From Sabellastarte sp. h YS-2021 (lineage: Eukaryota; Annelida; Polychaeta; Sabellida; Sabellidae): a stretch of 64,000 bases of DNA. Positions 5,990 to 40,784 of this stretch are shown piece by piece. The notes below the pieces were generated by a model, which was not told where the DNA came from, searched no databases, and saw only the letters and a list, made by a program, of their open reading frames with translations. The stretch spans positions 101,140,221-101,204,220 of the forward strand of contig OZ024931.1 in NCBI GenBank assembly GCA_964017235.1. Direction: 5' to 3'. Numbering within the stretch: the first letter of the stretch is position 1; each line of letters begins with the position of its first letter. A program made the translations under genes and the position numbers.

Positions 5990-6612
5990 TAATGTGGGTG
6001 TTCCACCACACGACTAAGGATCCCGATTAAGGGTTTTGAGGGGTCGGTTTGAAATATTTGCTTAGTCCCAGACCTTCTGTAAGGGTCGGTTGTGGTCGGT
6101 TGGGGCCGTGTGAAAAATCAAACATGTTTGATATTTCACACGACTACAACCGATTCATATTTCCCGCCCTCAACAAAATGTCCAGTCCCAGGCGTCCTCA
6201 GGCCTCCTCAGACCCAATTTTACACAGTCGTGTGTTGTCCCAGGCCGCCTGCGACCCTTAGTCCCAGACCTCCGTAGCTTAGTCCCAGGAGGCCGGTTGT
6301 TAGTCCCAGACTCAAATATGATGCGTATGAATTTCATGCGTCTGAAAGTGGGTCGGTTGCATTAGTCCCCGGAAGCCTCAGACCGTCTGCGGTGTCCTGG
6401 GACCCAAAAATCAAGGTCTGGGACTAAGAACCGACTAAGGGTAACCGACCCTAACCGATCCAAACCGGCCTCCCCAGGACGCCTGGGACCACACATTTTC
6501 AGTCTGCGGCGGCCTGAGGATGCCCCAGGCGGCCTGGGACTAACAACCGATTAAGAACCGACTGTTTTCCGCGCGTCAGAAATTAAAACGAGGCAATGAG
6601 AGGGTCTGGGAC

Positions 6613-6620
6613 TATATAAG
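6613..6620 (+). promoter_or_regulatory. TATA box of the Harb-1 MADF gene
   Basis: TATATAAG stands 174 nt upstream of the ATG at 6794 in the sequence GGGACTATATAAGCGACC. It is preserved in Harb-2 at 36415-36422. Position relative to transcription start is inferred. Confidence 0.6.
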
Positions 6621-6793
6621 CGACCGCGCACACATTGTCGTTGTTACTGACTGTTTGGCTACTGAGAGACGTGTGTCACTGATTTGTAGGGGTTTTCAGT
6701 TTTTATTTTACATTTTATATACTTGAGCTTAGGGCAAATTTCACAGTTAGGAGACACATTTTACTATTTTTTTATTATTTTGTCGACTGGATT

Positions 6794-8017
6794 ATGAGGA
6801 AAGAGAAAGGAGGGAAGAGAGGAAGGAAAAAGATGGATGAGAGGGAGAAGGAAAGTCAAGTAGAGGAGAGGAGTGAAGTTATTACAGAAGAAGGAAGTGA
6901 GAGGAGAGAGGAGGAGGAGATTCAGGAAGATCCAGCTATTGGGGAAGCTGTGGCAGAAGAAGAAGAGAGGTGTGAGGAAGATCCGGAGTGCCATTCTTCA
7001 GCCAAGAGAGCCAGGGTGTGTGCCACTTTTACAGACAGCCAGGAAGTTTCCATTGTGGAATTTGTAAAGCTGCACCCTGAACTGTATGACAAGGAACATT
7101 CACGTTTCCACGACAGGACCAGAAGAGAGGCTCTCTGGGCAGAAATATCTGCAGAACTCAAGCTCCAGCCCTTTGATGTGAGAAGATGGTTCGAGTCCCA
7201 GCGAACCCGTTATGGGAAGCTGTCTAAGCTCCAATCTGGCCAAGCCCCGAGGGAGATGACCAAGAGACAGTCCTGGGTGTACCAACAGATGGGTTTTCTT
7301 AAAACCCACATCAGAAGAAAGGGGGCCAATAGAAGTTCAGGTTTTGAGGCCAGTCCAAATACCAGCAGGCAGGACGAATCACGTGGCTCAACTACTGATA
7401 CAGAACACCTCGAGTCCAGTGTCCTGAGGGAGAGGAGTCAGTCCATCATTACATCAACGCCCGTTTCAACTACAGACTCCAAGATTCTCGAACACTTTGA
7501 GCAGATGAGGACACTTATCTCTGGTTTTCTGCATCAGAAGTCAGACAGGCAGCCCTTCTTTGACTACGTGGCATCAGAGGCCGAAAAGATGACTCAAGAA
7601 GAATTCGAAGAATTAAAGGGCAAGATTTTTAGAGACATCGAAACTATTAAGAGTAACCGCAGACGTCAGCCATTGCCCAGAAGATCAGCCACTGTTACCA
7701 CGGAGTCCCAGAGGGTCGGCCTACTGCCAACAACCACTCCACAGGCGTCTAGTTCCACTCAAGCAGCAGCTAGCAGCAGTTTTGTGTACTATACACCAAG
7801 CCCCATTGGCTTCAGCAACCCGACATCTGTCCTAACTGTACAGGACGAAGGGAGCAGACACAATCTGAGTGGAATCTTAAGCCAGCTACCAGATCTGACA
7901 TCAACACAGATCGTCGAGCAGCCTCAGCAGCAGCAGCAGCAGCAACAACCGCAGCAGCAGCTCTTTACTATCACCAATTCAGCACTGCCTCAACAGCAGC
8001 AGCAGCCTCCTCAGTAG
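6794..8017 (+). CDS. Harb-1 MADF-domain DNA-binding protein
   Basis: 407 residues, intronless. Residues 1-75 are highly charged (Lys/Arg then Glu-rich) and include KRARV, a possible nuclear signal. Residues about 84-145 form a MADF/trihelix-type domain: VEFVKLHPELYDKEH, a conserved Trp in REALWAEI, and VRRWFESQRTRYGKLSK. A Ser/Thr-rich middle (about 190-300) contains an FEQMRTLISGFL helix. The tail (about 375-407) is Gln-rich, encoded by CAG/CAA runs. In PIF/Harbinger elements a Myb/SANT or MADF partner binds element ends and helps bring the transposase to DNA and into the nucleus. That role is inferred from the family. Harb-2 encodes a copy differing at only a handful of residues. The mRNA ends 33 nt later in a histone-like stem-loop. 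Confidence 0.9.
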   Translation: MRKEKGGKRGRKKMDEREKESQVEERSEVITEEGSERREEEEIQEDPAIGEAVAEEEERCEEDPECHSSAKRARVCATFTDSQEVSIVEFVKLHPELYDKEHSRFHDRTRREALWAEISAELKLQPFDVRRWFESQRTRYGKLSKLQSGQAPREMTKRQSWVYQQMGFLKTHIRRKGANRSSGFEASPNTSRQDESRGSTTDTEHLESSVLRERSQSIITSTPVSTTDSKILEHFEQMRTLISGFLHQKSDRQPFFDYVASEAEKMTQEEFEELKGKIFRDIETIKSNRRRQPLPRRSATVTTESQRVGLLPTTTPQASSSTQAAASSSFVYYTPSPIGFSNPTSVLTVQDEGSRHNLSGILSQLPDLTSTQIVEQPQQQQQQQQPQQQLFTITNSALPQQQQQPPQ

Positions 8018-8049
8018 CCATCCAGTCAGGGCGGGTCTTTGACCTGCCA

Positions 8050-8065
8050 GGCCCTTTTCAGGGCC
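8050..8065 (+). promoter_or_regulatory. Histone-type 3' stem-loop of the Harb-1 MADF mRNA
   Basis: GGCCCTTTTCAGGGCC forms a 6-bp stem with a TTTC loop, followed by ACCAAA. It fits the replication-dependent histone consensus GGYYYT-THTH-ARRRCC plus ACCCA-type flank. It begins 33 nt after the stop codon, as in histone genes. A downstream box (TTCCAAAAACAATTATTCAG) is nearly repeated after the transposase stem-loop. Confidence 0.7.
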
Positions 8066-8860
8066 ACCAAATCTTCCAAAAACAATTATTCAGCTACATG
8101 TTCTTCCAATTCCCCTCCCAAAACAAAAAAGTTCAGTACAAATACTTATCACAAGAAAAAAAAAGTTCAAGTCCAACACCTACACCACCCCAAACATGAA
8201 ACAAATAACCCATGGTACCACACATAACAAAAAAGGCCACATAAAAAAAAATAAAAATAACTCCCAATATGGCCATTAATCAGCCCATTTTTAGAGTAAA
8301 ATCCATGGGATAGTTTAAAATCTGTAATTGAAAAGTCCAACACTTACACCTTCCCTAGAGTTAAAAGGCATTATCACATACTTACCAACCCACAAACAGA
8401 CAAACCCAACACCAAACATAACCCCCAAATAACAAACCCAGTACCAAACATAACCCCCAAATAACAAACCCAGTACCAAACCTAACACCCAACTACCAAA
8501 AATAAACCCAACTCCAGTAACCACCAACCAACAAACACACAAACCCAAAAGTAAATAGAACCCATGCCAACAAACTGACAAACTATTTTGCAAACACAAT
8601 CCCCCATTATTGAAAGAAAAACTAGTTCCATGGTTATATTTTCCCCATTTTTGTGATTATAAGTGAAGATTTAAAATTGAAGATTTCCATGAAAACCTTT
8701 GTGCTACAAATAAATTTGCAAGCCATTAACAAGAAAAATTGGTGAAATTATGATGTGGATTTCAAAATATATAAAAAATAATTCAATTTCGGATATTATG
8801 TGTGACTTTGTGTTGGGCTTTTGTTTAACAGTGGGTTTGTCTGTTTGTTGGGTGAGTAAG
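8066..8860. other. Harb-1 intergenic spacer between convergent genes
   Basis: No gene seen. An internal short repeat (AACCCAGTACCAAACATAAC) occurs about twice at 8400-8500. Apparent frames here are repeat-derived. Confidence 0.5.
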
Positions 8861-8861
8861 T

Positions 8862-9172
8862 TGTGTTTGTCTGTTTGTCCGTCTCAACAAGTTATGTTTG
8901 GCATGGGGTTTGTCTGTTTGTCCGTCTCAACAAGTTATGTTTGGTATGGGGTTTGTCTGTTTGTCCGTCTCAACAAGTTATGTTTGGCATGGGGTTTGTC
9001 TGTTTGTCCGTCTCAACAAGTTATGTTTGGCATGGGGTTTGTCTGTTTGTCCGTCTCAACAAGTTATGTTTGGCATGGGGTTTGTCTGTTTGTCCGTCTC
9101 AACAAGTTATGTTTGGTATGGGGTTTGTCTGTTTGTCCGTCTCAACAAGTTATGTTTGGCATGGGGTTTGAC
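8862..9172. repeat. 43-bp minisatellite, 7 units, in Harb-1
   Basis: The unit contains GTCTGTTTGTCCGTCTCAAC followed by AAGTTATGTTTGGYATGGG. Seven copies of the AACAAGTTATGTTTGG core are spaced 43 bp apart. All three + frames are open through it, giving false Cys-rich ORFs. Harb-2 has six units at the same place. Confidence 0.9.
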
Positions 9173-9218
9173 CTTCTGTAGCAAACATAGCTGATTAATT
9201 GTTTTTGGAATAATTGGT

Positions 9219-9234
9219 AGTCCTGAAAAGGACT
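9219..9234 (-). promoter_or_regulatory. Histone-type 3' stem-loop (distal) of the Harb-1 transposase mRNA
   Basis: Read on the minus strand: AGTCCTTTTCAGGACT then ACCAA. Stem of 6 bp, TTTC loop. Only the outer base pair (A-T instead of G-C) departs from the metazoan histone consensus. A TTCCAAAAACAATTAATCAG box follows, nearly identical to the one after the MADF stem-loop. Confidence 0.65.
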
Positions 9235-9243
9235 GTTATAGTT

Positions 9244-9259
9244 AGTCCTGAAAAGGACT
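9244..9259 (-). promoter_or_regulatory. Second (proximal) copy of the transposase 3' stem-loop
   Basis: The same 16-nt AGTCCTTTTCAGGACT, offset by 25 nt from the distal copy and 17 nt after the ancestral stop at 9277-9279. The duplicate lacks the ACCA flank. In Harb-2 this proximal copy has lost one T while the distal copy is intact. Confidence 0.5.
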
Positions 9260-9327
9260 GTTTACTGCAGCAGGACTTATATTCTGCCATCTTGCCAGGC
9301 CACTGCTCCCTCATTGTTGAAGTAGTC

Positions 9328-10578
9328 CTACAGGTAATCCCTCTGTCTCTTGGCTTCTCTGGCAGGGTTTCTGTCTTGTCCACCACCAGCAGCACCACCA
9401 ATCAATCCACAATCATCAGGTACATCATCATCATCGTCCTCCCCAGGCTGCTGACCACCAGGTTGACCTTGATACTGGCTCCTCAGTATGTTGTGTAGAA
9501 CAACACAGGTCAAGACCACTTCCCTGACTGTTGCTGGGGGTAGTTCAATGGTTGTCCTCATCACCCTGAATCTTGACACAAGGATGCCAAAAGCGTTCTC
9601 CACCACTCTTCTGCCCCTTGAAATTCTATAATTGGCAATCCTTTCCTCTCTTGTTAACATCCTTCTGCCATAGGGTTTCATGAGCCAGGTCTTCAGGGCA
9701 AAAGCATCATCTGCCAGGATGAAGTAGGGGACATCTCTCCCACCCTGGGTTATAGGAGCTGGGTCAGGGAAGCCTATCCTGCCATCCTCAATCCTCCTCT
9801 TCAGCTGAGAGGCATTAAATATCTGGCCATCCGAGCAGGATCCTTCAGTACCCACATCCACCCATCTAAACTTGTACTGTCCATCTACCAGGGCCAACAT
9901 CACAATAGAAAAGAACCCCTTATAGTTGTGGTAGAGGGCTCCAGTGTTCTTGGGCTTCTTCAGGGCCACATGCTTCCCATCCAGAGCTCCCAGGGCATGT
10001 GGAACATTCCACCTGATCCTGAATTCCCTCTCCAGTTCTTTCCACTCATCTGGGGTTGTAGGACATTTCAGGTACTCCCTGGTGAACTCATCCTGGATGG
10101 CCCTGCAGACCTCTGGTATAAACTTGGAGATGGTGGATCTTCCAACCCTGAACTGACAGGACAATGATGTGTATGACTCTCCAGTAGCCAGATATCTGAT
10201 GGTGAGGGCTAACTTCTCCCCAACACTGATTGGTGCTCTGTAGTTGGTGGCCTGCCTGGCTAGGTGTGGTTCCAGTCTGGTCTTAATCATTTCAAAAAAT
10301 TCTGGGGTCATCCTCATGTAGTTGGTGAATCCTGGAATATCTGTGGCATAAAGATCAGCCATAATGTTGTGGTAGGCCCCCCTCTCCTCTCTCTGCAGTA
10401 GCCATGGCCTGACCCACATGTTGTGCCTTCTTCTAGGTCTCTGTATGGGTGCTGGTGGTGCTGGTGGTGGTTGCTGTGGTCGACGTAAAAAATGGAAATA
10501 CATGATTATTTGTAACTGAATAAAAACCAAAAAAGCCCTAAGTTGTTGTTGAATCTGTCTTCCATTAAAAGGTGGCAT
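9328..10578 (-). CDS. Harb-1 DDE transposase (HARBI1-like), C-terminus truncated by a stop
   Basis: 416 residues from the ATG at 10578, chosen because Harb-2 starts at the same MPPFNGRQ and a TATA box lies just upstream; an in-frame ATG at 10602 is too close to it. Residues about 145-160 look like a helix-turn-helix (FRVGRSTISKFIPEV). The DDE_Tnp_4 catalytic triad is visible: D200 in GALDGKH, D290/D291 in [13 protein letters not shown] and E327 in RRVVENAFGILVSRF. It would cut and join element ends at TWA targets. A TAG at 9328 replaces an AAG seen in Harb-2 and removes about 17 residues (DYFNNEG... to the TAA at 9277-9279). The core is intact, so activity is possible. Confidence 0.9.
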   Translation of the reverse strand: MPPFNGRQIQQQLRAFLVFIQLQIIMYFHFLRRPQQPPPAPPAPIQRPRRRHNMWVRPWLLQREERGAYHNIMADLYATDIPGFTNYMRMTPEFFEMIKTRLEPHLARQATNYRAPISVGEKLALTIRYLATGESYTSLSCQFRVGRSTISKFIPEVCRAIQDEFTREYLKCPTTPDEWKELEREFRIRWNVPHALGALDGKHVALKKPKNTGALYHNYKGFFSIVMLALVDGQYKFRWVDVGTEGSCSDGQIFNASQLKRRIEDGRIGFPDPAPITQGGRDVPYFILADDAFALKTWLMKPYGRRMLTREERIANYRISRGRRVVENAFGILVSRFRVMRTTIELPPATVREVVLTCVVLHNILRSQYQGQPGGQQPGEDDDDDVPDDCGLIGGAAGGGQDRNPAREAKRQRDYL

Positions 10579-10618
10579 CCTGCTGTGTTCCCAGAAAAGC
10601 AATGATCATTAGATCGCG

Positions 10619-10637
10619 AATTTTATATATATATATA
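10619..10637 (-). promoter_or_regulatory. TATA box of the Harb-1 transposase gene
   Basis: On the minus strand TATATATATATATAAAATTC lies 41-59 nt before the ATG at 10578, implying a leader of only about 20 nt. Harb-2 keeps it at 40353-40367. Confidence 0.55.
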
Positions 10638-11046
10638 CCCAGAAAATCCAGCAACTTTGGAAAACAATAATCGGGGATCCTGGTCTGGGGAAGACTGAGG
10701 AGGCCTGAGGACGCCTGAGGACGCCGGTAGTTAATCGTGGGTTAGTCGGGGCTTAGTCCCAGGAGGCCTGAGGCGTCCTGGGACCCAGTCGGTATGTGTA
10801 CGGCTGGATCGTGGTTGAAACCGACCTGAAAACTGGCTTAGTCGGTTCTTAGTCCCAGACCAGTCGGGGACTGTCTGCGGCCGCCTGAGGCGTCCTGAGG
10901 CATCCTGGGGACGATCTGTTCTTAATCCCAGACTTCAGTACCGACCCAGTATTCCCGCCCATTTTTGTTACTTTCCCACCGACTGTCCACGATTAAGGGT
11001 CGCCGACAGGATCGGGGCTTAATCTTTTGGTGGAACAGGGGCATAA

Positions 11047-11653: not shown

Positions 11654-13426
11654 CAGATTTTACACCCCACATAAAATGCATGGGGGTGTAATATATGGCA
11701 AGTTCACTTGCCATATTTTACACCCCTTGCCATATTCTACACCCCCCTGCCATATTTTTTATACCCCTTGGTGGATTTCTTTACAGTTACTATATTATGA
11801 AATAAGTGAAATTCAACAGCGATAAACGTCCACAAATTAAGCATCAAAACTCAAAGACAATAATTCCTTTGCTTACAAATTGTTAAATGTCTAAGAACAG
11901 CAAACTAAATGAAATAAAATATATTTAGTGTTAATACAGTGGGACAAAATTCTTTCTATATATTTTCCTTTGAAGTGAGAGGCCAACCCATTGTTGTTGA
12001 TTTGTATTCACTAGGCTAGTCCCTGACTGAAAATGTTACATGCCATTTTGACCCCATCCGCAGTTTAAAATGGCGGTCCGCCGTTTTAAATGGCAGTCCG
12101 CTGTTTTAAACAGCAGGCTGCCATTTTAAATGGCTCAGCCAACTAGATATTTAACAGCCAACTATACTTCATATGATAGTATGCACTAATGTCATGTGAA
12201 TCAACTGACTTTTGTGTGTCATCCAGCCACAATTCAAGAGAACAAACATTCTGATGATTGATGTAATTGCAATTAACAGCCCTCCTTTGTACATTACTAT
12301 ATTATTATACACATTTGCATTCATTTATGTTAAATCCAGCCTGCACATAAGACAATGCAATAGAAAGTAATCCTACATGAAAAGAGTGGCTTTCCACAGA
12401 CTAGTCTTTTCATACAGTGTGGAGGTCATCCCTATTGTGTTGATTTGTTATCTATTACTTAAGTGATCACTTAATTGGATTTGTAACTATTGTATTGTTA
12501 GGCTTTCACAAAAATTGCTTTTACTGAAACAATTGACTTGATAGTATTAAAGCTGTTTGAATACTTGTTGAAAACTCATAATTACTATATATTGATATAA
12601 TTATATTGGTATTTGATATTTCATTTTTTTTATTTTTTAAGCTTAAATGATAAAATATAGATAGGAATTAAATAATTTATCATGGTATTATCATGGTATT
12701 TATCATTTTTTTTATTTTTTTAAGCTTAAATGACAAAATATAGAAAGCAATTAAATAATTTATCAACTGGTATTTTACAGTTTTCTATGTAATAATAATA
12801 ATGTAATAATAAAGTTCTTCAAGAATGATTTTTACTCTGAATATAATATAAACCATACAAGCATATGTCAATAAAGAAATTTATGTTACATTATCAGGGA
12901 GGAGAAATATCTCCCAAAATACCTTAAAAAGAGTTTTTCAACAATACCAATTAATCCTGTTAGCTTAGCTAGTCACTTAACCACAAGTGAAACAAATCAA
13001 GTTCAAAAGAATGCTAGAACAAAAGGCAAATCTTAGACTAATCCATTTACCAAGTCACATACATAGCCAAACAAATCAACTTAAAGAGTCTTATAACAAT
13101 AGACATATCATAATCTAATCCAGTTTCTGTCACACCCCAGAAGTAAAACAAATCAAGTTCTAAGCAGTGGTTAGACAATAGACAATTACAAACTCAATTG
13201 CAATCTAACCAATAAAAGGTTTGCTCTTAATCCCCAGTTGATTTGCTCTGTATGACCCAGTAGGGGGTGTAACTTTTGATGGGGGTGTAAAATATGGCAG
13301 CAATATTTTACACCCCCTAAATCCCCTATTGTTAGGGGTGTAAAATATGATTGCCATATAATGCACCCCCTAAAAGATCAAAGAGAGGGTGTAAAATATG
13401 GCAGGGGTGTAAAATATGGCATTACA
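11646..13426. mobile_element. E2: TIR element of the E1 type with diverged terminal motifs
   Basis: It starts TGTAGCGCC and ends GGCATTACA, with CCGG at 11642-11645 and 13427-13430. Both ends carry reiterated TTGCCATATTTTACACCCC units in place of E1's GGGGATACATTATTTTGC. Whole stretches of the right end, inverted, match the left end of E1 apart from this motif change (CTTTGATCTTTT, AACAATAGGGG). No coding frame is seen, so it is non-autonomous. A segment of about 85 bp is duplicated at 12620-12770 (AAGCTTAAATGAYAAAATAT). Confidence 0.65.
12045..12140. repeat. Palindrome-rich AAATGGC/GCCATTT cluster inside E2
   Basis: Alternating AAATGGCGGTCCGCCGTTTT, AAATGGCAGTCCGCTG and GCCATTTTAAATGGC motifs can fold on themselves in several ways. 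No gene. Confidence 0.6.
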
Positions 13427-20745: not shown

Positions 20746-22460
20746 TTGTAATTACTTTGTTTAATACATATATGGTTCACTACAATTCCTTTAATGTTGA
20801 CCAAGCTACGGAAAATTATAGCAACAATTTCGGCTGGTAGCAGAAATAGAAGTGTACTAAGGGGACAGCCCTGTCTGATCCCTCTGGATATTTTAAAGTA
20901 TTCTGATTGGTGACCATTATTGGTGATACAACTCTCAATATCACAATAAAGGGTAGATATCCATTTTTGAAAAATTTCACAAAACCCCAATCTTTTTAAC
21001 AGGCATGTAGAAAATTCCAGGTTATTTTATCAAAGGCCTTTTCAAACTCAGCCAGTAATATAATACATGGGTTTTTACTTAACTTACAGAAGTCAATCAT
21101 ATTGGCAATAAGCCAAATATTTTCACCATAAAAGCGACTTTCCATGTATCCAATTTGGTCTGGATTTATAATCTCTCTCAATCCTAACTAAAGCCTTTTT
21201 GCCAAAACTTTTGCTAAGATCTTATAGTCTGTATTCAAGAGTGAAAGGGATCGCCAAGATTCTAGTTTAGTCAGGTCTTTTCCTTTTTTCGGTATAAGAC
21301 ACAACACACCTTGTTTCTGAGATTTTGTTAAGAAGCCATTGTTAAATGTATCATGAAAGCTGTTCAAAAGAAGATCAGAAATGTCATTCCAAAATATTTT
21401 ATAGAATTCTCCTTGTAAACCATCAGGACTCGGTGCTTTGTTATTTTGTAATTCTTGGACAGCTTTTTCTAGCTCAGTCATTGTGATGACTCCATCACAG
21501 ACCTCCTTTGTACTATTTGACAATTTTAGAATATTTACATTGTCTAAGTAATTGTTGCATTCACCCTCTGTCATATTAAAATCTGTTTCAGACCATGAAA
21601 AAAATTTACTATAAAAAACTTTCTGGGGTTCTAAAATTTGTGCCGGGTTACAGATGCGTTGACCATCTATGTTTAGAGCACTAATCTGCAACTTTTTTTG
21701 TCTTATTTTTTCCAAATTCAGGAAATATTTAGAAGGTTTTTCATACTCGTTAATAAACTTACATCTTGAGCAAATTAAGGTACCTTTTGCCTTTTGGTCA
21801 TAATATTGTTCTATTTCAGATTTTACATTATCATACTCCTTAAGTTCAAGTGGGGAAGGGGAAGTAGTTATTCGTTCTTCAAGATGTACCAACCTCTCTG
21901 ACAATGTGTTCATATAATCACGTTGTTTTTTATTCTTTCTTATGGAGAAGGATATAAATTCTGTCCTTATTCCGCATTTAATATAATCCCAGGCCATATG
22001 TTTAGCACTAAAATTTGGTATATCTAATCTTCCTTCTTGTATTGTAGATTTAATAAGTTTAATATAGTTATCATCTTGAAGCAAACTTGTATTTAACATC
22101 CAGAGACCCCTGCCACGTTTTGGTTGATTTTCTAATAAAATAGTTAACTTGAGAAGACTATGGCCTGATTTCAGGCCAGGCAGAATATCTGCTATTTCAA
22201 TTACATACTCCACATGAATAGTAACAAGAAAATAGTCTATTCTATAGTCCGTAGCGGGCACAACATCAGGATTTTTAAGGTTCCAATTATCTACAAGGTC
22301 ATAGGTTTCAATTAACTGTCTCAGGTAACTGCTGTAAGAATGACTTTGATTGTTTTGGACTGCTTCAAGATTTTCCGAATTAAAATTTAGATCACCACCA
22401 ATGATAATACTGTGGCCAAAGTTTTTTTCCATAGTATTACATAGAAGATGGCCAAAGTTA
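20746..22460 (-). pseudogene. LINE A: endonuclease second half and RT first half
   Basis: One long frame (22460-21188) holds the endonuclease GGDLNFN motif, the TDYRIDYFLVT region and a long linker. RT begins at LQNNKAPSPDGLQGEFYKIF, then VLCLIPKKGKDLTKLESWRS and LNTDYKILAKVLAKRL, strong Tx1/L1 signatures. After a frameshift come NPDQIGYMESRFYGENI and LLAEFEKAFDKITWNF with the first catalytic Asp replaced by Glu (AEFEKAF). Then, after another frameshift, GIRQGCPLSTLLFLL. It stops at LINE B. Confidence 0.85.
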
Positions 22461-23042
22461 TGCAGGTGTTCCACTGGAGCCAACAGGCCCATAACTATGC
22501 ACTTTTGGAGAGTCGGGACTAATGTTTACATGGTTGGTTAGGGTCGGTTGCAAGTTAGCGGCTTGTCGGGGAGAGTCAGTGAAACATGTTTGATATTTCT
22601 ATGGCCGTTGCCAACCCTTGTATCTGACCCTAATTTCAGCCCCCTAGCAACTGGCCTGTCGGTTAATTTAATGGCCTGTCGGTTACACTTCCCGGCTTGT
22701 CGGTTAATCAATCAGGCCTGTCTGTAACAAGTATCCGGCTTGTCCCAAATATAGACTTCCAGACTGTACGTGATGACTCACCGACCGTGCGGGAAGTATT
22801 ACAGTACAGTCGGTAACTTTAGACGGCCTGTCTGTAAGTGTTCCTGACAGGCCTGTAAAGTTTACAGGCCAGTCGGTAACTTTAACCGACTGGGTTCTAG
22901 AGTCGGGAAAATTTGTAACTGACAGGCCGTAAACTGAAACAGACAAGCCGTAAACAATAACCGACAGGCCTGTAACACTAACAGACAAGCCGGGAACTGT
23001 AACCGACAGGCCCTCAATATTTTTGCATCAGAGGGAGAAAGA

Positions 23043-24619
23043 TTGAAGTACCAACTGACACTCAACCACAGTTTGATGCAGTTAGGAGATACAGCTGCGG
23101 ATATAGAAAGAAGGAGGAGGGAGAGAGAGGAGAGGGATGAGAGAGGATTGAACAGGAGGAGAGGGACAGAGAGAGGATGGAGAGAGAGGGAAGAGAGCCC
23201 AGAAAGAGGAGAGAAGAGAGTGCGAACTGACAGGGATATTGATGTAGCATCAACTCAATCCAGACAGAAGAAGGGCCTGATGAAGTCCATTTTCCTGAGT
23301 GACGAAGAAGCCATCGTGGAGTTCGTTAAATAGCACGAGGAACTGTATGACAAGACCAATGACAGTTTCAAAGACAAACAGAAGAAAGAAAGTTTACAGG
23401 CCAGTGAACTCCCTGATGATGTACGATCTGCCACTTCCATTGCTTCCTTCAGAAAAAAACTTAAGGCATACCTGTTCTGCCAAGCTTATCCTCCTTAGTA
23501 TTTTCCACCTCAGATGATTTTTGTGACTATACCTATGATGTTGCGCCTTAGAGTCTGTCACTCTGGCAGAGATTAAGTGCTATAAAAGTTGAAATTGGAA
23601 TTGGAAAGAAAGACTTTGGGAGCATCTAGCAGCTACCAGAAACTTGCCTGTCAAGACTGTGAAGAAGTGGTTTGATACTCAATGTACCAGATATGGCAAG
23701 CTCGCTCAGACAAAGTCAGGACAAGCAGCTGAGAAGAGCACAGAACGACAGACCTGGCTGAAGGACAGTTTCAGTTTTCTATGAGGTCACATCAGAAGGA
23801 AGGGAGTTTCCAAGTCTTCTGCATTCAAATCACCCCAGAGGCCTTCTGCAGCCGCAGCCTCAGCTTCATGCAGTTCCAGATACATCCAAGGACACAGAAT
23901 CTGAGATGGAAATCAGCATTGCATCAGATGTTACTCATCAGCCTTTGAGCACCAGTCCCAAGCAACGACAGCCTCCAGTCAAGACTACCACCATGTCTGC
24001 AGATCCAGTCTTAGATCAGTTCCAGCAGATGAGGTTGATGATTTCCACATTTCTGGGTGCACGTCAGGACCCCACTCCAAGTCCAAGACAGTCGTTCTGC
24101 AACTATCTCCAATCTGAGATTGAACACCTTGAAGAAAGGGAATTTTTAACCTTCAGGAATGGGACAGTGAAGCTTCTCAGTGAAATACAGTACAAGGCCG
24201 AAGAACGCAAGAGACAGGTCACCAAAAGTCAAGAGGTGACCACATATCAACTTCCACAATTATCACAGGCCACAGCAGGATGTGAATACATACTCACCAT
24301 ACCGGAAACTCAACCAGTCTCCATTCCAGTTGTGCAGCCTACACAGACAGCCACAGGAGAACCTGTTACAGTGATTGCCAAAGTACAGCAACCACCAAGG
24401 CCTTCATCAGCATCAGCACAGTCAACTTCTTACATAGTTGTGGATGACCAACAGCCTGGGACTTCCAGACAGATGCTTTTCAACCCACCTTCAGTTCTAC
24501 CTTCACAACAGGAGGAAAGTCAGTACAACACTTCTGGATTATCCAGTCTCTTTGCAGTGATTCCTAGTGTGCTTCAGTATCAGCAAATGGACACACCACA
24601 GCCATTTTCACCCTCTTAA
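23043..24619 (+). pseudogene. Harb-3 MADF gene, disrupted
   Basis: The reading starts in an Arg/Glu-rich segment as in Harb-1 and reaches EAIVEFVK. There a TAG replaces the Leu codon of VKLHPELYD. The frame continues HEELYDKTND...FKDKQKKE, is interrupted by a LINE fragment at about 23386-23610, and resumes LWEHLAATRN, VKKWFDTQCTRYGKLAQT. A TGA stands in the FSFL-GHIRRKG segment. The rest (23906-24619) stays open and keeps LDQFQQMRLMISTFLGA and a Gln/Pro-rich tail. It is clearly homologous to the Harb-1 MADF protein but strongly diverged. Confidence 0.85.
23386..23610 (+). mobile_element. 3' fragment of a LINE inserted in the Harb-3 MADF gene
   Basis: It encodes LPDDVRSATSIASFRKKLKA followed by YLFCQAYPP and a stop, the usual C-terminal end of several LINE reverse transcriptases, then about 130 bp of 3' UTR ending in GAAATTGGAATTGG. 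A repeat of about 8-11 bp (AAGAAAGAAAG) borders it on both sides. Collapsing that repeat restores the MADF reading KKE-R-LWEH. Confidence 0.75.
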
Positions 24620-24750
24620 CTTCAACCAGCACTGTCACCAGTGCCATCTTCCACTCATCATGAATAGTCAAGACCTCCCAGCCAGTCCAGCCAGCAGAGT
24701 CAGAGTCAGCCCAAATCAGCGGATTAGCCCACACAAGTCGGACCAAACCC

Positions 24751-24766
24751 GGCCCTTTTAAGGGCC
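24751..24766 (+). promoter_or_regulatory. Histone-type 3' stem-loop of the Harb-3 MADF gene
   Basis: GGCCCTTTTAAGGGCC followed by ACCCGAA: 6-bp stem, TTTA loop (allowed THTH), ACCC flank. TCTTTCAAAAACAATTAACA follows. It is conserved although the surrounding UTR has diverged from Harb-1/2. Confidence 0.65.
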
Positions 24767-24779
24767 ACCCGAATCTTTC

Positions 24780-25625
24780 AAAAACAATTAACAAGCTACA
24801 CATCTATGCCCAAAAACAAAAAAAAGCACATCGTCCAACACTTACACCTCCCACAGTACACGAAAAAAAAATTGTGTGAATGAATGAGTGAATGTTAAAC
24901 AAATATTAATGAAGTTCCACCACAAAACCCCCAAAAAACTTAACAAAAAGAATTCCCTTAAGAAAAAATAATCCCCTAAGAAATCAAAGTAAAACCAACC
25001 CCAACCCCACAACAAAACTCAATTTTAAATAAACACTGCCCACACCCCAAAAACATAATCCAGACCCCAATCCACGTCCCCCAAAATCAAGATACAGACT
25101 CAAACCCACGTCCCCCAAAATCGAGATACAGACTCAAACCCACGTCCCTCCCAAAACCCAACTTGAAATAAAATGCCACATCCACACTCACAGACAAACA
25201 AACATGAGCCCTAACAAAATATACAAACATATGAGTTGCAATGGACTGACAAACTGACTTAAAAAAATATTAAACTGGGACTGCCAACCTGTAACTTTGT
25301 CTTGCAAATTTGCTTGTAAATTTTTTTTAATTCTTGCCATAAAATAGTTCAAGGTACTTATTTACAAAATTTTTCCCCCTTATTTTGTAAGTTATTTTTT
25401 CGGAGAATTAAGCCAGGTCATGTTGGGGTGGGATGTGAACTTTGTAAATTGAGGACCTGGGTTTAAATCTGTAAGTGATAAAATATATTTTTCTGAACTG
25501 AGTTTGGGTTGGATTTGTGTTTGTGATGGAGAATGTTTTTGGTGAAATGGAACTTATATAAAAGAGTTAGAAAATTGGGGTTATTTTTGACGCAACACTT
25601 TGCTAAATAAAAGTTCTTGGATTAT
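24780..25625. other. Harb-3 intergenic spacer, no gene
   Basis: A-rich then T-rich sequence with a short CCCACGTCCCCCAAAATC repeat near 25070-25150. It replaces the 43-bp minisatellite of Harb-1/2. Confidence 0.5.
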
Positions 25626-25631
25626 TTGGGT

Positions 25632-25647
25632 AGTCCTGAAAAGGACT
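25632..25647 (-). promoter_or_regulatory. Histone-type 3' stem-loop of the Harb-3 transposase gene
   Basis: Minus strand: AGTCCTTTTCAGGACT then ACCCAAATAATCCAAGAACT. It lies 34 nt after the transposase stop at 25682. The stem-loop is identical to Harb-1/2. The purine-rich CCAAGAAC downstream resembles a histone downstream element. Confidence 0.65.
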
Positions 25648-25681
25648 GATGCATGACAGCATGTTCTCTCCCTCAGTCTTC

Positions 25682-26916
25682 TTAAACTCTGTCCTGCTGC
25701 CCAGCCAGCACCCGCATGTTATTGAAGTAGTCTTTCAGTAGGTCTCGTTGATGTTTGGCCTCCCTCGATGGGTTTCTTAAGTTCTCATGATGTCTCTGTT
25801 CCCCCTGGTCCCCCTGTGGTGGTTGTATGTCGTCAGCTGGAGTGGGTGGTCTGTCTGCTCCCCCCTGATGGCTTCTCAACATGTTATGTAGTACCACACA
25901 TGTTAACACAATGTCTCTCACAACTTTTGGCCTCTGCTCCATGGTGGTCAACAGCACCCTGAATCGCTTGACAAGTATACCAAATGAGTTCTCGACCACC
26001 CTTCTCCCCTGGATATCCTGTAGTTGGCTATTCTCTCTTCTCTGGTCAGTTGGCGTCTACTGTAAGGCTTGACCAGCCAAGGCATCAGGGCAAAGGCGTC
26101 GTCCGCCAGCAGGAAGTAGTGTAGATCTGGCCCCCCAGGTCCAAGTGGTTCAGGTGGTGGTAGTCCCAAGGTTCTGTTCTCAATTCTTCTTTTCAGTTTG
26201 CTGTGGTTGAAAATCTGTGCATCAGATGATGACCCACTGGCCCCCGCTTTGACCCACAGGAACTTGTGATCTGCATCGACTAAAGCCAAAAGTATCAGGG
26301 AGAAGTAGCCCTTGTAGTTGAAATATTCACTGCCTGACTTCTTGGGCTTCTTGATAGCAATGTGTTTTCCATCTAATGCACCGACTACATGGGGGACATT
26401 CCATCTGTATCGAAACCTTTCCTAAATTGTCTTCCAGTCTTCAGGATCAGTGGGGCACACCAGATACTCTTGTTGAAATTCTTTCAAAATGGCTTTGCAG
26501 ACCTGGGGGACAAATTTGCAGAGGTCGTTCTTCCAACCCTCCATTGGTATTGCAGTGATGTGTAGCTTTCCCCTGTGGATAAGTGTCTCAAAGTAACTGC
26601 CAGTTTCAACCCGACTTCCAGTGGCTTCCTGAAGTTGGTGATTGACTTCCTGAGGTGGGGGGTGATTCTTTCTTCAATCAAATAAAAAAATGCTGGCTCC
26701 ATCCTGGTGAAATTTCTGTAGCCTGGTATGTCAGTAGTGATTAACTCATCCAAGAGTGTTCTGTAGCAACCTCTCTCCTCTCTCTGCAGTATCCAGGGCA
26801 GGACCCATCTGTCTTCTGTGTCTTGAAAATATCATGTACAATACAAAATTGAACTCAATAAAAAACCAAAGGACCCTGAAGTGATCTATCAGTTGCTCTT
26901 GATGTGTTCCTGTCAT
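25682..26916 (-). pseudogene. Harb-3 DDE transposase, disrupted
   Basis: ATG at 26916 (MTGTHQEQLIDHFRVLW). The HARBI1-like core follows in pieces: WILQREERGCYRTLLDEL, TTDIPGYRNF, RWRVGRTT, then a frameshift. [17 protein letters not shown] carries the first Asp, with a stop codon just before it near 26422. [17 protein letters not shown] carries the second Asp. After a frameshift near 26000 [15 protein letters not shown] carries the Glu. The C-terminus KDYFNNMRVLAGQQDRV supports the ancestral end inferred for Harb-1. Several lesions make it inactive. Confidence 0.85.
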
Positions 26917-27149
26917 CTTTGAAGCATGAAACTAGAAATAGGACGCCCTGTTGATAGTAGATGCGAATAGAAAAAGGATAGCATAGAAGAACACACATTA
27001 TCATGTGTAATGTCCACCCCATGAACCTTGCCCAAATTGTACAGTAGTCTTACAAGACCCTGTTTCATTTGTAAAATATATCAATGATGCTTAAATATTT
27101 ATTAGTGTAGATGTAAATTATTTCAGCTTCATGCCTTTTTGCATTGGTT

Positions 27150-35570: not shown

Positions 35571-36414
35571 TAGGGATCTTCCTTTGGCCACCCTTAACAT
35601 GTATACCAAGCTTGAAAAAAAATACTAATCCATTTTTGAGTTATCGCGAACACAAGGAAATTTCTACGGCGGCAGCGGTGGCGGCGGGCCGGACCTGAAT
35701 CCAATATATCCCCGACTTTCGTCTGGGGATATAATAATGCCTTTTCAGGGAAAATAACCTGCCCTCTGATATACCTCAAGCATATAACACCTTATGTGGG
35801 TGTTCCACCACACGACTAAGGCTCCCGATTAAGGGTTTTGGGGGGTCGGTTTGAAATATTTGCTTAGTCCCAGGCTTCCTGTAAGGATCGGTTGTGGTCG
35901 GTTGAGGCCGTGTGAAAAATCAAACATGTTTGATATTTCACACGACTACAACCGATTCCTATTTCCCGCCGTCAACAAAATGTCCAGTCCCAGGCGTCCT
36001 CAGGCCTCCTCAGACCCAAATTTACAGAGTCGGTTGTTGTCCCAGGCGTCCTGCGACCCTTAGTCCCAGACCTCCGTAGCTTAGTCCCAGGCGGCCGGTT
36101 CTTAATCCCAGACTCAAATATGATGCGTATGAATTTCATGCGTCTGAAAGTGAGTCGGTTTCATTAGTCCCCGGAAGCCTCAGACCGTCTGCGGTGTCCT
36201 GCGACCCAAAAATCAAGGTCTGGGACTAAGAACTGACTAAGGGTAACCGACCCTAACCGATCCAAACCGGCCTCCCCAGGACGCCTGGGACCACGCATTT
36301 TCAGTCTGCGGCGTCCTGAGGACGCCCCAGGCGGCCTGGGACTAACAACCGATTAAGAACCGACTGTTTTCCGCGCGTTGGAAATTAAAACGAGGCAATG
36401 AGCAGGTCTGGGAC

Positions 36415-36422
36415 TATATAAG
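36415..36422 (+). promoter_or_regulatory. TATA box of the Harb-2 MADF gene
   Basis: TATATAAG in the same context as in Harb-1, 174 nt before the ATG at 36596. Confidence 0.6.
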
Positions 36423-36595
36423 CGACCGCGCACACTTTGTCATTGTTACTGACTGTTTGGCTACTGAGAGACGTGTGTCACTGATTTGTAGGGGTTTTCA
36501 ATTTTTATTTTACATTTTATATACTTGAGCTTAAGGCAAATTTCACAGTTAGGAGACACATTTTACTATTTTTTTATTATTTTGTCGACTGGATC

Positions 36596-37819
36596 ATGAG
36601 AAAAGAGAAAGGAGGGAAGAGAGGAAGGAAAAAGATGGATGAGAGGGAGAAGGAAAGTCAAGTAGAGGAGAGGAGTGAAGTTATTACAGAAGAAGGAAGT
36701 GAGAGGAGAGAGGAGGAGGAGATTCAGGAAGATCCAGCTATTGGGGAAGCTGTGGCAGAAGAAGAAGAGAGGTGTGAGGAAGATCCGGAGTGCCATTCTT
36801 CAGCCAAGAGAGCCAGGGTGTGTGCCACTTTTACAGACAGTGATGAAGTTTCCATTGTAGAATTCGTCAAGCTGCACCCTGAACTGTATGACAAGGAACA
36901 TTCACGTTTCCACGACAGGAACAGAAGAGAGGCTCTCTGGGCAGAAATATCTGCAGAACTTAAGCTCCAGCCCTTTGATGTGAGAAGGTGGTTTGAGTCC
37001 CAGCGAACCCGTTATGGAAAGCTGTCTAAGCTCCAATCTGGCCAAGCCCCGAGGGAGATGACCAAGAGACAGTCCTGGGTCTACCAACAGATGGGTTTTC
37101 TTAAAACCCACATCAGAAGAAAGGGGGCCAATAGAAGTTCAGGTTTTGAGGCCAGTCCAAATACCAGCAAGCAGGACGAATCACGTGGGTCAACTACTGA
37201 CACAGAACACCTCGAGTCCAGTGTCCTGAGGGAGAGGAGTCAGTCCATCATTACATCAACACCCGTTTCAACTACAGACTCCAAGATTCTCGAACACTTT
37301 GAGCAGATGAGGACACTTATCTCAGGTTTTCTGCATCAGAAGTCAGACAGGCAGCCCTTCTTTGACTACGTGGCATCAGAGGCCGAAAAGATGACTCAAG
37401 AAGAATTTGAAGAATTAAAGGGCAAGATATTCAGAGATATCGAAAATATTAAGAGTAACCGCAGACGTCAGCCATTGCCCAGAAGATCAGCCACTGTTAC
37501 CACGGAGTCCCAGAGGGTCGGCCTACTGCCAACAACCACTCCACAGGCGTCAAGTTCCACTCAAGCAGCAGCTAGCAGCAGTTTTGTGTACTATACACCA
37601 AGCCCCATTGGCTTCAGCAACCCTACATCTGTCCTAACTGTACAGGACGAAGGGAGCAGACACAATCTGAGTGGAATCTTAAGCCAGCTACCAGATCTGA
37701 CATCAACACAGATCGGCGAGCAGCCTCAGCAGCAGCAGCAGCAGCAACAACCGCAGCAGCAGCTCTTGACTATCACCACTTCAGCACCGCCTCAACAGCA
37801 GCAGCAGCCTCCTCAGTAG
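36596..37819 (+). CDS. Harb-2 MADF-domain DNA-binding protein
   Basis: 407 residues, intact and intronless, colinear with the Harb-1 protein. Differences seen include Ser-Gln to Ser-Asp before the MADF domain (TFTDSDEVSIVEF), Thr to Asn in HDRNRREALW, Arg to Lys in NTSKQDES and small changes near the Gln-rich tail. The acidic N-terminus, MADF domain (about 84-145), FEQMRTLISGFL helix and terminal poly-Gln are all kept. Two intact copies of the partner protein in one window, against damaged transposases, is notable. Function by family: binding of element ends and recruitment of the transposase. Confidence 0.9.
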   Translation: MRKEKGGKRGRKKMDEREKESQVEERSEVITEEGSERREEEEIQEDPAIGEAVAEEEERCEEDPECHSSAKRARVCATFTDSDEVSIVEFVKLHPELYDKEHSRFHDRNRREALWAEISAELKLQPFDVRRWFESQRTRYGKLSKLQSGQAPREMTKRQSWVYQQMGFLKTHIRRKGANRSSGFEASPNTSKQDESRGSTTDTEHLESSVLRERSQSIITSTPVSTTDSKILEHFEQMRTLISGFLHQKSDRQPFFDYVASEAEKMTQEEFEELKGKIFRDIENIKSNRRRQPLPRRSATVTTESQRVGLLPTTTPQASSSTQAAASSSFVYYTPSPIGFSNPTSVLTVQDEGSRHNLSGILSQLPDLTSTQIGEQPQQQQQQQQPQQQLLTITTSAPPQQQQQPPQ

Positions 37820-37851
37820 CCATCCAGTCAGGGCGGGTCTTTGACCTGCCA

Positions 37852-37867
37852 GGCCCTTTTCAGGGCC
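37852..37867 (+). promoter_or_regulatory. Histone-type 3' stem-loop of the Harb-2 MADF mRNA
   Basis: GGCCCTTTTCAGGGCC plus ACCAAA, 33 nt after the stop codon, identical to Harb-1 including the downstream TTCCAAAAACAATTATTCAG. Confidence 0.7.
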
Positions 37868-38630
37868 ACCAAATCTTCCAAAAACAATTATTCAGCTACG
37901 TGTTCTTCCAATTCCCCTCCCAAAACAAAAAAGTTCAGTACAAATACTTATCACAAGAAAAAAAAATTAAAGTCCAACACTTACACCACCCCAAACATGA
38001 AACAAATAACCCATGGTACTACACATAACCAAAAAGGCCACATAAAAAAAATATTAAAAGTAACTCCCAATATGGCCATTAATCAGCCCATTTTTAGATT
38101 AAAATCCATGGGATAGTTTAAAATCTGTAATTGAAAAGTCCAACACTTGCACCTTCCCTAGAGTTAAAAGGCATAATTACATACTTACCAACCCACAAAC
38201 AGACAAACCCAATACCAAACATAACCCCCAAATAACAAACCCAGTACCAAACCTAATACCCAACTACCCCAAGAAAACCCAACCCCAGTAACCACCAACC
38301 AACAAACACCCAAACCCAAAAGTAAATAGAACCCATGCCAACGAACTGACAAACTATTTAGCAAACACAATCCCCCATTATTGAAAGCAAAACTAGTTCC
38401 ATGGTTATATTTTCCAAATTTTTGTGATTAGAAATGAATATTTAAAATTGAATATTTCCATAAAAAAATTTCTGCTACAAATAAGTTTCCCAGCCATGAA
38501 AAAAGAAAAATGTTTAAATTATGATGTGGATTTGAAAATATATAAAATAATAATTCAATTTAGGATATTATGTGTGACTTTGTGTTTCGCTTTTGTTTAA
38601 CAGTGGGTTTGTCTGTTTGTTGGGTGAGTA
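37868..38630. other. Harb-2 intergenic spacer
   Basis: No gene; colinear with 8066-8860 of Harb-1 with small indels. Confidence 0.5.
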
Positions 38631-38639
38631 AGTTGTGTT

Positions 38640-38895
38640 TGTCTGTTTGTCTGTCTGAACAAGTTATGTTTGGCATGGGGTTTGTCTGTTTGTCTGTCTC
38701 AACAAGTTATGTTTGGCATGGGGTTTGTCTGTTTGTCCGTCTCAACAAGTTATGTTTGGCATGGGGTTTGTCTGTTTGTCCGTCTCAACAAGTTATGTTT
38801 GGCATGGGGTTTGTCTGTTTGTCCGTCTCAACAAGTTATGTTTGGCATGGGGTTTGTCTGTCCGTCTCAACAAGTTATGCTTGGCATGGGATTTG
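38640..38895. repeat. 43-bp minisatellite, 6 units, in Harb-2
   Basis: Same unit as in Harb-1. Six AACAAGTTATGYTTGG cores are present. The last interval is shortened to about 39 bp by loss of one TTTG. Confidence 0.9.
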
Positions 38896-38940
38896 TCTGT
38901 TTGTCCACATAGCTGATTAATTGTTTTTGGAATATTTGGT

Positions 38941-38980
38941 AGTCCTGAAAAGGACTGTTATAGTTAGCCTGAAAAGGACT
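38941..38980 (-). promoter_or_regulatory. Tandem histone-type 3' stem-loops of the Harb-2 transposase gene
   Basis: The distal copy (38941-38956) is perfect on the minus strand: AGTCCTTTTCAGGACT then ACCAAATATTCC. The proximal copy (38966-38980) lacks one T (AGTCCTTTTCAGGCT), breaking a base pair. The copy with the ACCA flank is the one preserved. Confidence 0.65.
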
Positions 38981-39122
38981 GTTTACTGCAACAGGACTTA
39001 TATTCTGCCATCTTGCCAGGCCACTGCTCCCTCATTATTGAAGTAGTCCTTCAGGTAATCCCTCTGTCTTTTGGCCTCTCTAGCAGGGTTTCTGTCCTGG
39101 CCACCACCAGCAGCACCACCAA

Positions 39123-40310
39123 TCAATCCACAATCACCAGGCACATCATCATCATCATCATCCCCCCCGGCTGCTGACCAGCAGGTTGACCTTGATACTG
39201 GCTTCTGAGTATATTGTGCAGAACCACACAGGTCATGACCACTTCTCTAACTGTTTCTGGGGGTAGTTCAATGGTGGTCCTCATGACTCTAAATCTTGAC
39301 ACAAGGATGCCAAAAGCGTTCTCCACAACTCTCCTGCCCCTTGATATTCTGTAGTTGGCAATCCTTTCCTCCCTTGTTAACAGCCTTCTGCCATAGGGTT
39401 TCATGAGCCAGGTCTTCAGGGCAAAGGCATCATCTGCCAAAATGAAGTAGGGGACATCTCTACCACCCTGTGTTATAGGAGCTGGGTCAGGGAAGCCTAT
39501 CCTGCCATCTTCAATCCTCCTCTTCAGCTGAGAGGCATTAAATATCTGGGCATCTGAGCAAGACCCTTCTGTACCCACATCCACCCATCTGAATTTGTAC
39601 TGCCCATCTACCAAGGCCAACATGACAATGGAAAAGAACCCCTTGTAGTTGTGGTAGAGGGCTCCAGAGTTCTTGGGTTTCTTCAGGGCCACATGCTTTC
39701 CATCCAGGGCTCCCAGGGCATGTGGAACATTCCACCTGATCCTGAATTGCCTTTCCAGTTCTTTCCACTCATCTGGAGTAGTAGGACATTTGAGGTACTC
39801 TCTGGTGAACTCATCCTGGATGGCCCTGCAGACCTCTGGTAGAAACTTGGAAATGGTGGATCTGCCAACCCTGAACTGACAGGATAATGATGTGTATGAC
39901 TCTCCAGTGGCCAGATATCTGATGGTGAGGGCTAACTTCTCCCCAACACTGATAGGAGCTCTGTAGTTGGTGGCCTGCCTGGCTAGACGTGGTTCCAGTC
40001 TGGTCTTCATCATTTCAAAGAATTCTGGGGTCATCCTCATGTAGTTGGTGAATCCTGGAATGTCTGTGGCATACAGATCAGCCATAATGTTGTGGTAGGC
40101 CCCCCTCTCCTCTCTCTGCAGTAGCCATGGCCTGACCCACATGTTGTGCCTTCTTCTAGGTCTCTGTATGGGTGCTTGTGGTGCTGGTGGTGGTGGTGGT
40201 GGTTGCTGTGCTTGACGTAAAAAATGGAAATACATGATTATTTGTAACTGAATAAAAACCAAAAAAGCCCTAAGTTGTTGTTGAATCTGTCTTCCATTAA
40301 AAGGTGGCAT
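39123..40310 (-). pseudogene. Harb-2 DDE transposase, C-terminal frameshift
   Basis: 395 residues from ATG 40310 (MPPFNGRQIQQQ). The DDE_Tnp_4 core is complete: D in GALDGKH, DD in [13 protein letters not shown] and E in RRVVENAFGILVSRF. A one-base indel in the G-run and GAT repeat at about 39160-39170 shifts the frame. The acidic DDDDDVP stretch becomes a Met run (PGGMMMMMMCLV) and the frame soon stops. In the other frame the lost C-terminus continues (GLIGGAAGGGQDRNPAREAK) to KDYFNNEGAVAWQDGRI. If that tail is dispensable the protein could still act. Confidence 0.85.
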
Positions 40311-40352
40311 CCTGGTGTGTTCCTAGAAAAGCAATGATGATTAGATCGCAAA

Positions 40353-40367
40353 TTTTATATATATATA
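40353..40367 (-). promoter_or_regulatory. TATA box of the Harb-2 transposase gene
   Basis: TATATATATATAAAATT on the minus strand, 43-57 nt before the ATG. Confidence 0.55.
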
Positions 40368-40784
40368 CCCAGAAAATCCAGCAACTTTGCAAAACAATAA
40401 TCGGGGATCGTGGTCTGGGGAGGCCTGAGGAGGCCTGAGGACGCCTGAGGACGCCGGTAGTTAATCGTGTTAGTCGGCTCTTAGTCCCAGGAGGCCTGAG
40501 GCGTCCTGGGACCCAGTCGGTTTGTGTCCGACAGGATCGTGGTTGAAACCGACCCGAAAACTGGCTTAGTCGGTTCTTAGTCTCAGACCAGTCGGGGACT
40601 GTCTGCGGCCGCCTGAGGCGTCCTGAGGTGTCCTGAGGCGTCCTGGGGACGATCTGTTCTTAATCCCAGACTTCAGTACCGACCCAGTATTCCCGCCCAT
40701 TTTTGTCTTTTTTCAACCGACTGTGCACGATTAAGGGTCGCCGACAGGATCGGGGCTTAATCTTTTGGTGGAACAGGGGCATTA

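Follow-up and report, generated by a model that had tools for sequence, protein, structure and literature searches.

Histone-type 3' ends in a two-gene Harbinger lineage

A lineage of two-gene PIF/Harbinger transposons in the annelid Sabellastarte sp. h YS-2021 carries, behind both of its convergent genes, the stem-loop, ACC flank and downstream box of replication-dependent histone genes. The hairpins themselves are real and far above chance, and their structural reading as histone-type 3' ends is strongly supported. On the basis of sequence comparison, we assign a probability of about 0.78 to the reading that this lineage captured histone 3' ends and that its mRNAs are at least partly processed by SLBP and U7 in replicating cells. 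A stronger version, in which both proteins would come only from stem-loop-ended, non-polyadenylated mRNAs, and hence only in S phase, with the pathway taken over lineage-wide, has in our judgement a little better than an even chance.

The window, by which we mean the whole 64-kb stretch of contig OZ024931.1 analyzed here, contains 3 Harbinger copies, E1, E2, and E3, each with the MADF gene on the plus strand and the transposase gene on the minus strand (Table 1). E1 and E2 are 93.5% identical with matching termini, and show the hallmarks of PIF/Harbinger elements, namely target duplications of the TWA type and inverted repeats, the terminal 16 bases being alike at 12 of 16 positions. The transposase frames of both are slightly damaged; that of E1 is shut early, at 9328, so that stop distances on this side were measured from the ancestral stop, which ends at 9277. 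The family is young: a genome search scored 99 copies at 98% to 100% identity, and in many of them a frame of about 443 aa is open. Two-gene transposons of this kind, such as zebrafish Harbinger3_DR, share the DDE_Tnp_4 transposase, the MADF/Myb-like partner, the inverted repeats, and the TWA duplication; rice Ping/Pong are likewise two-gene PIF/Harbinger DNA transposons. The MADF/Myb-like partner is reportedly required to bring both Harbinger proteins into the nucleus (passages of PMC9710019).

Table 1. Coordinates of the Harbinger copies, their genes, and their 3'-end features in the window.
Feature	Position	Strand	Details
Harbinger copy E1	5993..11043		5051 bp; ends TGTGGGTGTTCCACCA / TGGTGGAACAGGGGCA; 3-bp duplication TAA at flanks
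Harbinger copy E2	35795..40781		4987 bp; 3-bp duplication TTA at flanks
Harbinger copy E3	23000..27000		span approximate, ends not found; older, broken; 65% DNA identity in the transposase region
E1 MADF (Myb/SANT-like) gene	6794..8017	+	407 aa, one open frame; Pfam MADF_DNA_bdg PF10545, 1.2e-11
E1 MADF stem-loop GGCCCT-TTTC-AGGGCC, then ACCAAA	8050..8065	+	32 nt past stop ending 8017
E1 MADF downstream box TTCCAAAAACAATTATTCAGCTACATGTT	8074..8102	+	resembles host histone boxes (H1, H3, H4)
Tandem repeat between E1's two gene ends	8865..9170	+	unit about 43/86 bp
E1 transposase downstream box TTCCAAAAACAATTAATCAGCTATGTTT	9183..9210	-	
E1 transposase stem-loop AGTCCT-TTTC-AGGACT, box-bearing copy	9219..9234	-	42 nt past ancestral stop
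E1 upstream tandem duplicate hairpin AGTCCT-TTTC-AGGACT	9244..9259	-	17 nt past ancestral stop; without box
E1 transposase gene (DDE_Tnp_4)	9277..10605	-	Pfam PF13359, 1.3e-32; 10605 is the open-frame end, not a start codon
E2 MADF stem-loop GGCCCT-TTTC-AGGGCC-ACC	37852..37867	+	32 nt past stop ending 37819; RF00032 35.2 bits
E2 transposase stem-loop AGTCCT-TTTC-AGGACT-ACC	38941..38956	-	41 nt past stop ending 38998; below Rfam cut-off
E3 MADF stem-loop GGCCCT-TTTA-AGGGCC + ACCC	24751..24766	+	box CTTTCAAAAACAATTAACAAGCT; under Rfam cut-off; fold -11.5
E3 transposase stem-loop AGTCCT-TTTC-AGGACT-ACC	25632..25647	-	34 nt past stop; H2A/H2B-type box CAAGAACTTTTATTT; below Rfam cut-off

Hairpins and downstream boxes in the window

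The stem-loop and ACCAAA flank that the sequence-only reading had placed behind the MADF gene were recovered in E1 exactly as described, and the hairpin scores 35.2 bits against the Rfam Histone3 model (RF00032; cut-off 34; E 1.7e-6 over 64 kb), with a predicted fold of -11.4 kcal/mol. On the transposase side, the claimed 6-bp stem and TTTC loop hold for both members of a tandem pair, and the claimed ACCAA flank only for the second (9234), which alone leads into the box. This box-bearing hairpin scores 32.4 bits, under the cut-off of 34 (E 2.1e-6); the foot of the transposase stem is an A-U rather than a G-C pair, and the transposase-side scores lie below the Rfam threshold. The Histone3 search proposed in the sequence-only reading therefore divides the window, with the E1 and E2 MADF hairpins above the cut-off and the transposase hairpins under it. 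The proposed range of stop distances, 17 to 42 nt, agrees with all 3 hairpins of E1, and the downstream box TTCCAAAAACAATTA is indeed common to the two genes. In E2, the upstream, box-less transposase hairpin has decayed and the box-bearing one is intact. The MADF hairpin of the broken copy E3 lies 131 nt beyond the end (24619) of the open frame that remains.

These elements combine a 6-bp stem, a 4-nt U-rich loop, a G as the second stem base, and an ACC flank, as expected of histone 3' ends; the G at the second stem position is the base contacted by Arg181 of SLBP, as described in passages of PMC10388802. Strict matches, defined as a perfect 6-bp RG stem, a TTTM loop, and ACC, number 6 in the window, 3 per strand; 60 first-order Markov sequences of equal length yielded none. 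Across the genome, the exact hairpin 19-mers AGTCCTTTTMAGGACTACC and GGCCCTTTTMAGGGCCACC occur 3353 and 2186 times, and the same patterns reversed do not occur (0 matches). A chance origin is ruled out by both controls. Insertion beside a histone gene is likewise ruled out, because the hairpins occur in scattered copies, each behind a MADF or transposase frame; inspection by eye of the open frames listed around E1, E2, and E3 found no histone frame, and Pfam shows only transposase and MADF domains, no histone being encoded.

Host histone genes and probable origin of the 3' ends

In the 1.79-Gb genome, Histone3 matches pointed to a host H1 array and to a cluster with H2A, H2B, H3, and H4 frames, these names being readings of open frames rather than database assignments. 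The H1 array (locus L016, C4:31445000-31453000) is built of a regular 1932-bp unit. Host histone genes end in GGCTCT-TTTC-AGAGCC-ACC, 31 to 41 nt past the stop, and continue into the boxes TTCCAAAAACAATTAATAGCT (H1), TTCCAAAAACAATTAATAAGCT (H3), TTTCAAAAACAATTATTCAGCT (H4), and TTTCAAGAACTTTTATTTRAGCT (H2A/H2B). The replication-dependent histone pattern claimed for the transposon thus has its counterpart in this genome's own histone genes, which are built alike as to stem, loop, flank, downstream box, and stop distance. The Harbinger and histone genes share the 6-bp stem, the 4-nt loop, the ACC flank, the downstream box, single open frames, and a distance of about 31 to 42 nt from the stop (E1 and E2). 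They differ in the stems, GGCCCT and AGTCCT in Harbinger versus GGCTCT in the host, the changes being paired, and in gene content, which in Harbinger is a transposase plus a MADF protein; Harbinger is moreover mobile and present in thousands of copies.

The box shared by the two Harbinger genes is the host histone box, and in E1 the match extends to AGCT. E3 bears the H2A/H2B form behind the transposase gene and an H4-like form behind the MADF gene. Together, the identity of the boxes and the 2 forms in E3 make the 3' ends look captured, and histone genes of the host were probably their source, perhaps on several occasions.

Conservation of the hairpin and box

Among 36 distinct hairpins, 3 of the 6 stem pairs have changed on both sides (G-C/A-U, C-G/U-A, and C-G/U-A). 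These rows were picked by a pattern that demands pairing, a G at stem position 2, and a T at loop position 2, so that their full pairing and invariant G are built in, and hairpins with a broken pair, such as the transposase hairpin of L019, are omitted from the set. The second-position G is also kept in copies that were not chosen by the pattern.

Over the 40 nt spanning hairpin and box, mean pairwise identity is 0.91 for 10 MADF sequences and 0.87 for 9 transposase sequences, in copies whose proteins are as little as 44% (transposase) or about 30% (MADF) identical. Of 30 other 20-nt bins, 27 lie at pairwise identities of 0.04 to 0.59; the remaining 3, all on the transposase side at 0.77 to 0.88, comprise two that precede the hairpin and fall within or close to the end of the coding region, and one 120 nt after it. 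A Histone3 match, nearly always at the MADF end, was the route to most of the older copies (L001-L028), so that intact MADF hairpins and boxes are favored in this comparison and the transposase ends came unselected. Of 75 RF00032 matches, 28 loci were inspected: the eight that came first in the output, with 7 Harbinger loci and 1 histone locus, and a further 20 that we chose (18 Harbinger, 2 histone).

The young copies provide a sample free of hairpin selection: 20 were fetched by protein match, and all 19 that could be anchored at the stop keep a hairpin before a box. The 20th, L085, was not anchored and stands outside the count. One young copy (L073) has the loop TTTT.

Distribution of the hairpins among Harbinger elements

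Among the Harbinger elements of this genome, we considered 40 PF13359 loci, drawn from 150 for score spread and including near-copies. The Histone3 search of related Harbinger elements, also proposed in the sequence-only reading, gave matches in 6 of them, all of this lineage, with scores of 30.8 to 33.1 bits that stay under the cut-off (E between 4.7e-6 and 3.5e-5); the 34 others gave none up to E = 1. On these 34 loci, the hairpin as a general Harbinger trait is ruled out. On contig C1, 99 transposase-type sites are among the matches listed; 48 of these have a MADF-type partner that faces them from 410 to 1388 nt away (median 1023), and 4 neighbors are otherwise placed.

A quick tree, in which several rows were included because of their hairpin, unites 12 rows labeled as having a hairpin after the transposase, 3 labeled MADF-only, and L057 in a single starred set (16 rows); the remaining 33 rows lie outside. 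L057 has no hairpin, though it falls inside the starred set. The MADF-only sister lineage (L001, L026, and L027) is a natural comparison: it shares the MADF gene with its histone hairpin and box, but its transposase, 44% to 56% identical, is followed by AATAAA, and neither a pattern search nor inspection by eye found a hairpin there. That this lineage does without a hairpin on its transposase counts against the SLBP/U7 reading. In the tree, E3, L057, and the sister lineage branch off at a single fork, and the transposase hairpin may have arisen once or more. In the L002-L005 subfamily, the MADF hairpin is perfect, and the transposase hairpin has the weaker form AGTCCT-TTTC-AGGGCT-ATT with a degraded box; L002 is nevertheless one of the 12 rows labeled as carrying a hairpin after the transposase. 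A scan of viral contigs found no relative; a protein search did list relatives, at the protein level.

At C1:64935297-64942615, among the matches listed, six MADF-type hairpins follow one another at 1460-bp steps. One unit of this array (L089, C1:64935280-64936790) contains the MADF gene, 5' leader, stop, hairpin, and box without a transposase, which suggests tandem amplification of the MADF unit by itself.

Polyadenylation signals and alternative explanations

The sequence-only reading had held that no AATAAA is placed to serve in lieu of the stem-loops. This stands for the transposase strand, which has no AATAAA between the two genes in E1 or E2, and fails for the MADF strand, where AATAAA occurs at 8250, 8501, and 8709 in E1 and ATTAAA at 37966, 38053, and 38098 in E2. 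Within 300 nt of the hairpin start, AATAAA or ATTAAA is present at 9 of 9 MADF ends examined (AATAAA itself at 7) and at 3 of 7 transposase ends. Polyadenylation could therefore serve too, and mixed endings are possible. In a fuller form of this alternative, SLBP would bind the hairpins, yet most transcripts would be polyadenylated downstream, the hairpin being a second or stage-specific ending; the AATAAA after the transposase of the sister lineage and the AATAAA lying 55 nt from the hairpin start in the host H3 gene would fit it. However, one of the hexamers also lies within the same distance at 4 of 6 histone ends of the host, so that their presence may mean little in AT-rich DNA, and the AATAAA motifs of the E1 MADF strand are absent from E2. 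A hexamer lies within 300 nt past the stop in 26 of the 34 other Harbinger loci, which lack the hairpin, compared with 1 among 5 young loci of the hairpin-bearing lineage (Fisher p 0.025, for loci that are non-independent; L055 omitted for an early stop). Weighing these observations, we consider predominant polyadenylation unlikely.

That the hairpins act in DNA or during transcription rather than through SLBP, either as terminators that keep the convergent genes from producing double-stranded RNA or as binding sites for the element's own proteins, would suit genes whose ends lie about 1 kb apart, but neither a terminator nor a binding site needs a histone loop, flank, and stop distance together with the host box, and we regard this as very improbable. 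Least probable of all is a passive relic, a histone 3' end captured once and copied along without function. Such an account could draw on the near-identity of most young copies, whose hairpins are not independent evidence, on the discovery of most older copies through a hairpin match, which leaves decayed ones under-sampled, and on the weakened transposase hairpins of L002-L005 and L019. Against it stand the paired substitutions in the stems, the likeness of hairpin and box in copies whose flanks have diverged, and E2, in which decay struck the hairpin without a box and spared the one that bears it.

Proposed mechanism and significance

The host encodes the SLBP RNA-binding domain (PF15247), matched in two pieces on contig C6 (56.8 and 35.9 bits; cut-off 27) that we read as two exons. 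The Rfam U7 model gave no match in this genome, nor in any control. Since the host has SLBP and its histone genes bear the Harbinger box, processing of Harbinger transcripts by SLBP and U7 in the manner of histone pre-mRNAs is the simplest reading. Under this proposal, a two-gene PIF/Harbinger lineage would have acquired complete replication-dependent histone 3' ends from host histone genes; the stem-loop of its transcripts would be bound by host SLBP and the downstream box paired by the U7 snRNP, and the pre-mRNA would be cleaved just beyond the stem-loop. At least some of the resulting stem-loop-ended mRNAs would be stable and translated in DNA-replicating cells, such as those of the germ line and early embryo, and the element's two proteins, transposase and MADF partner, would be produced together during S phase, a time at which cut-and-paste movement can add copies. 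Excision from replicated DNA followed by reinsertion ahead of the fork increases copy number, which is why S-phase timing would suit a cut-and-paste element.

According to PMC10388802 and PMC6303110, no animal mRNAs other than those of the replication-dependent histones are known to lack poly(A). Among the open-access papers listed, judged by title and opening of the abstract, none describes a transposon or Harbinger element with histone-type 3' ends, and the word "stem-loop" occurs 0 times in the main text of PMC9710019. Under the stronger version, with both proteins made only in S phase from non-polyadenylated mRNAs, the Harbinger transcripts would be the first non-histone members of the histone-type mRNA class, and a cut-and-paste element would have a direct means of timing excision to replication. 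Thousands of such ends on a transposon would overturn the histone-only rule for mRNAs without poly(A) and would suggest how a cut-and-paste element couples its activity to DNA replication. In addition, the lineage would supply natural hairpin variants, add a large pool of competing SLBP and U7 substrates, and account for the possible absence of such elements from poly(A)-selected RNA-seq.

Other features of the window

Between positions 27200 and 29500, inspection by eye revealed satellite-like repeats of roughly 170 to 200 bp with recurring TTGCCATTTTTGGCAA palindromes. A 445-aa open frame on the minus strand (21188-22525) resembles, also by eye, part of a LINE-type reverse transcriptase. A long hairpin at 11671-11760, which gave a weak match to microRNA models (25.2 bits, far under the cut-off), is probably a small inverted-repeat element.
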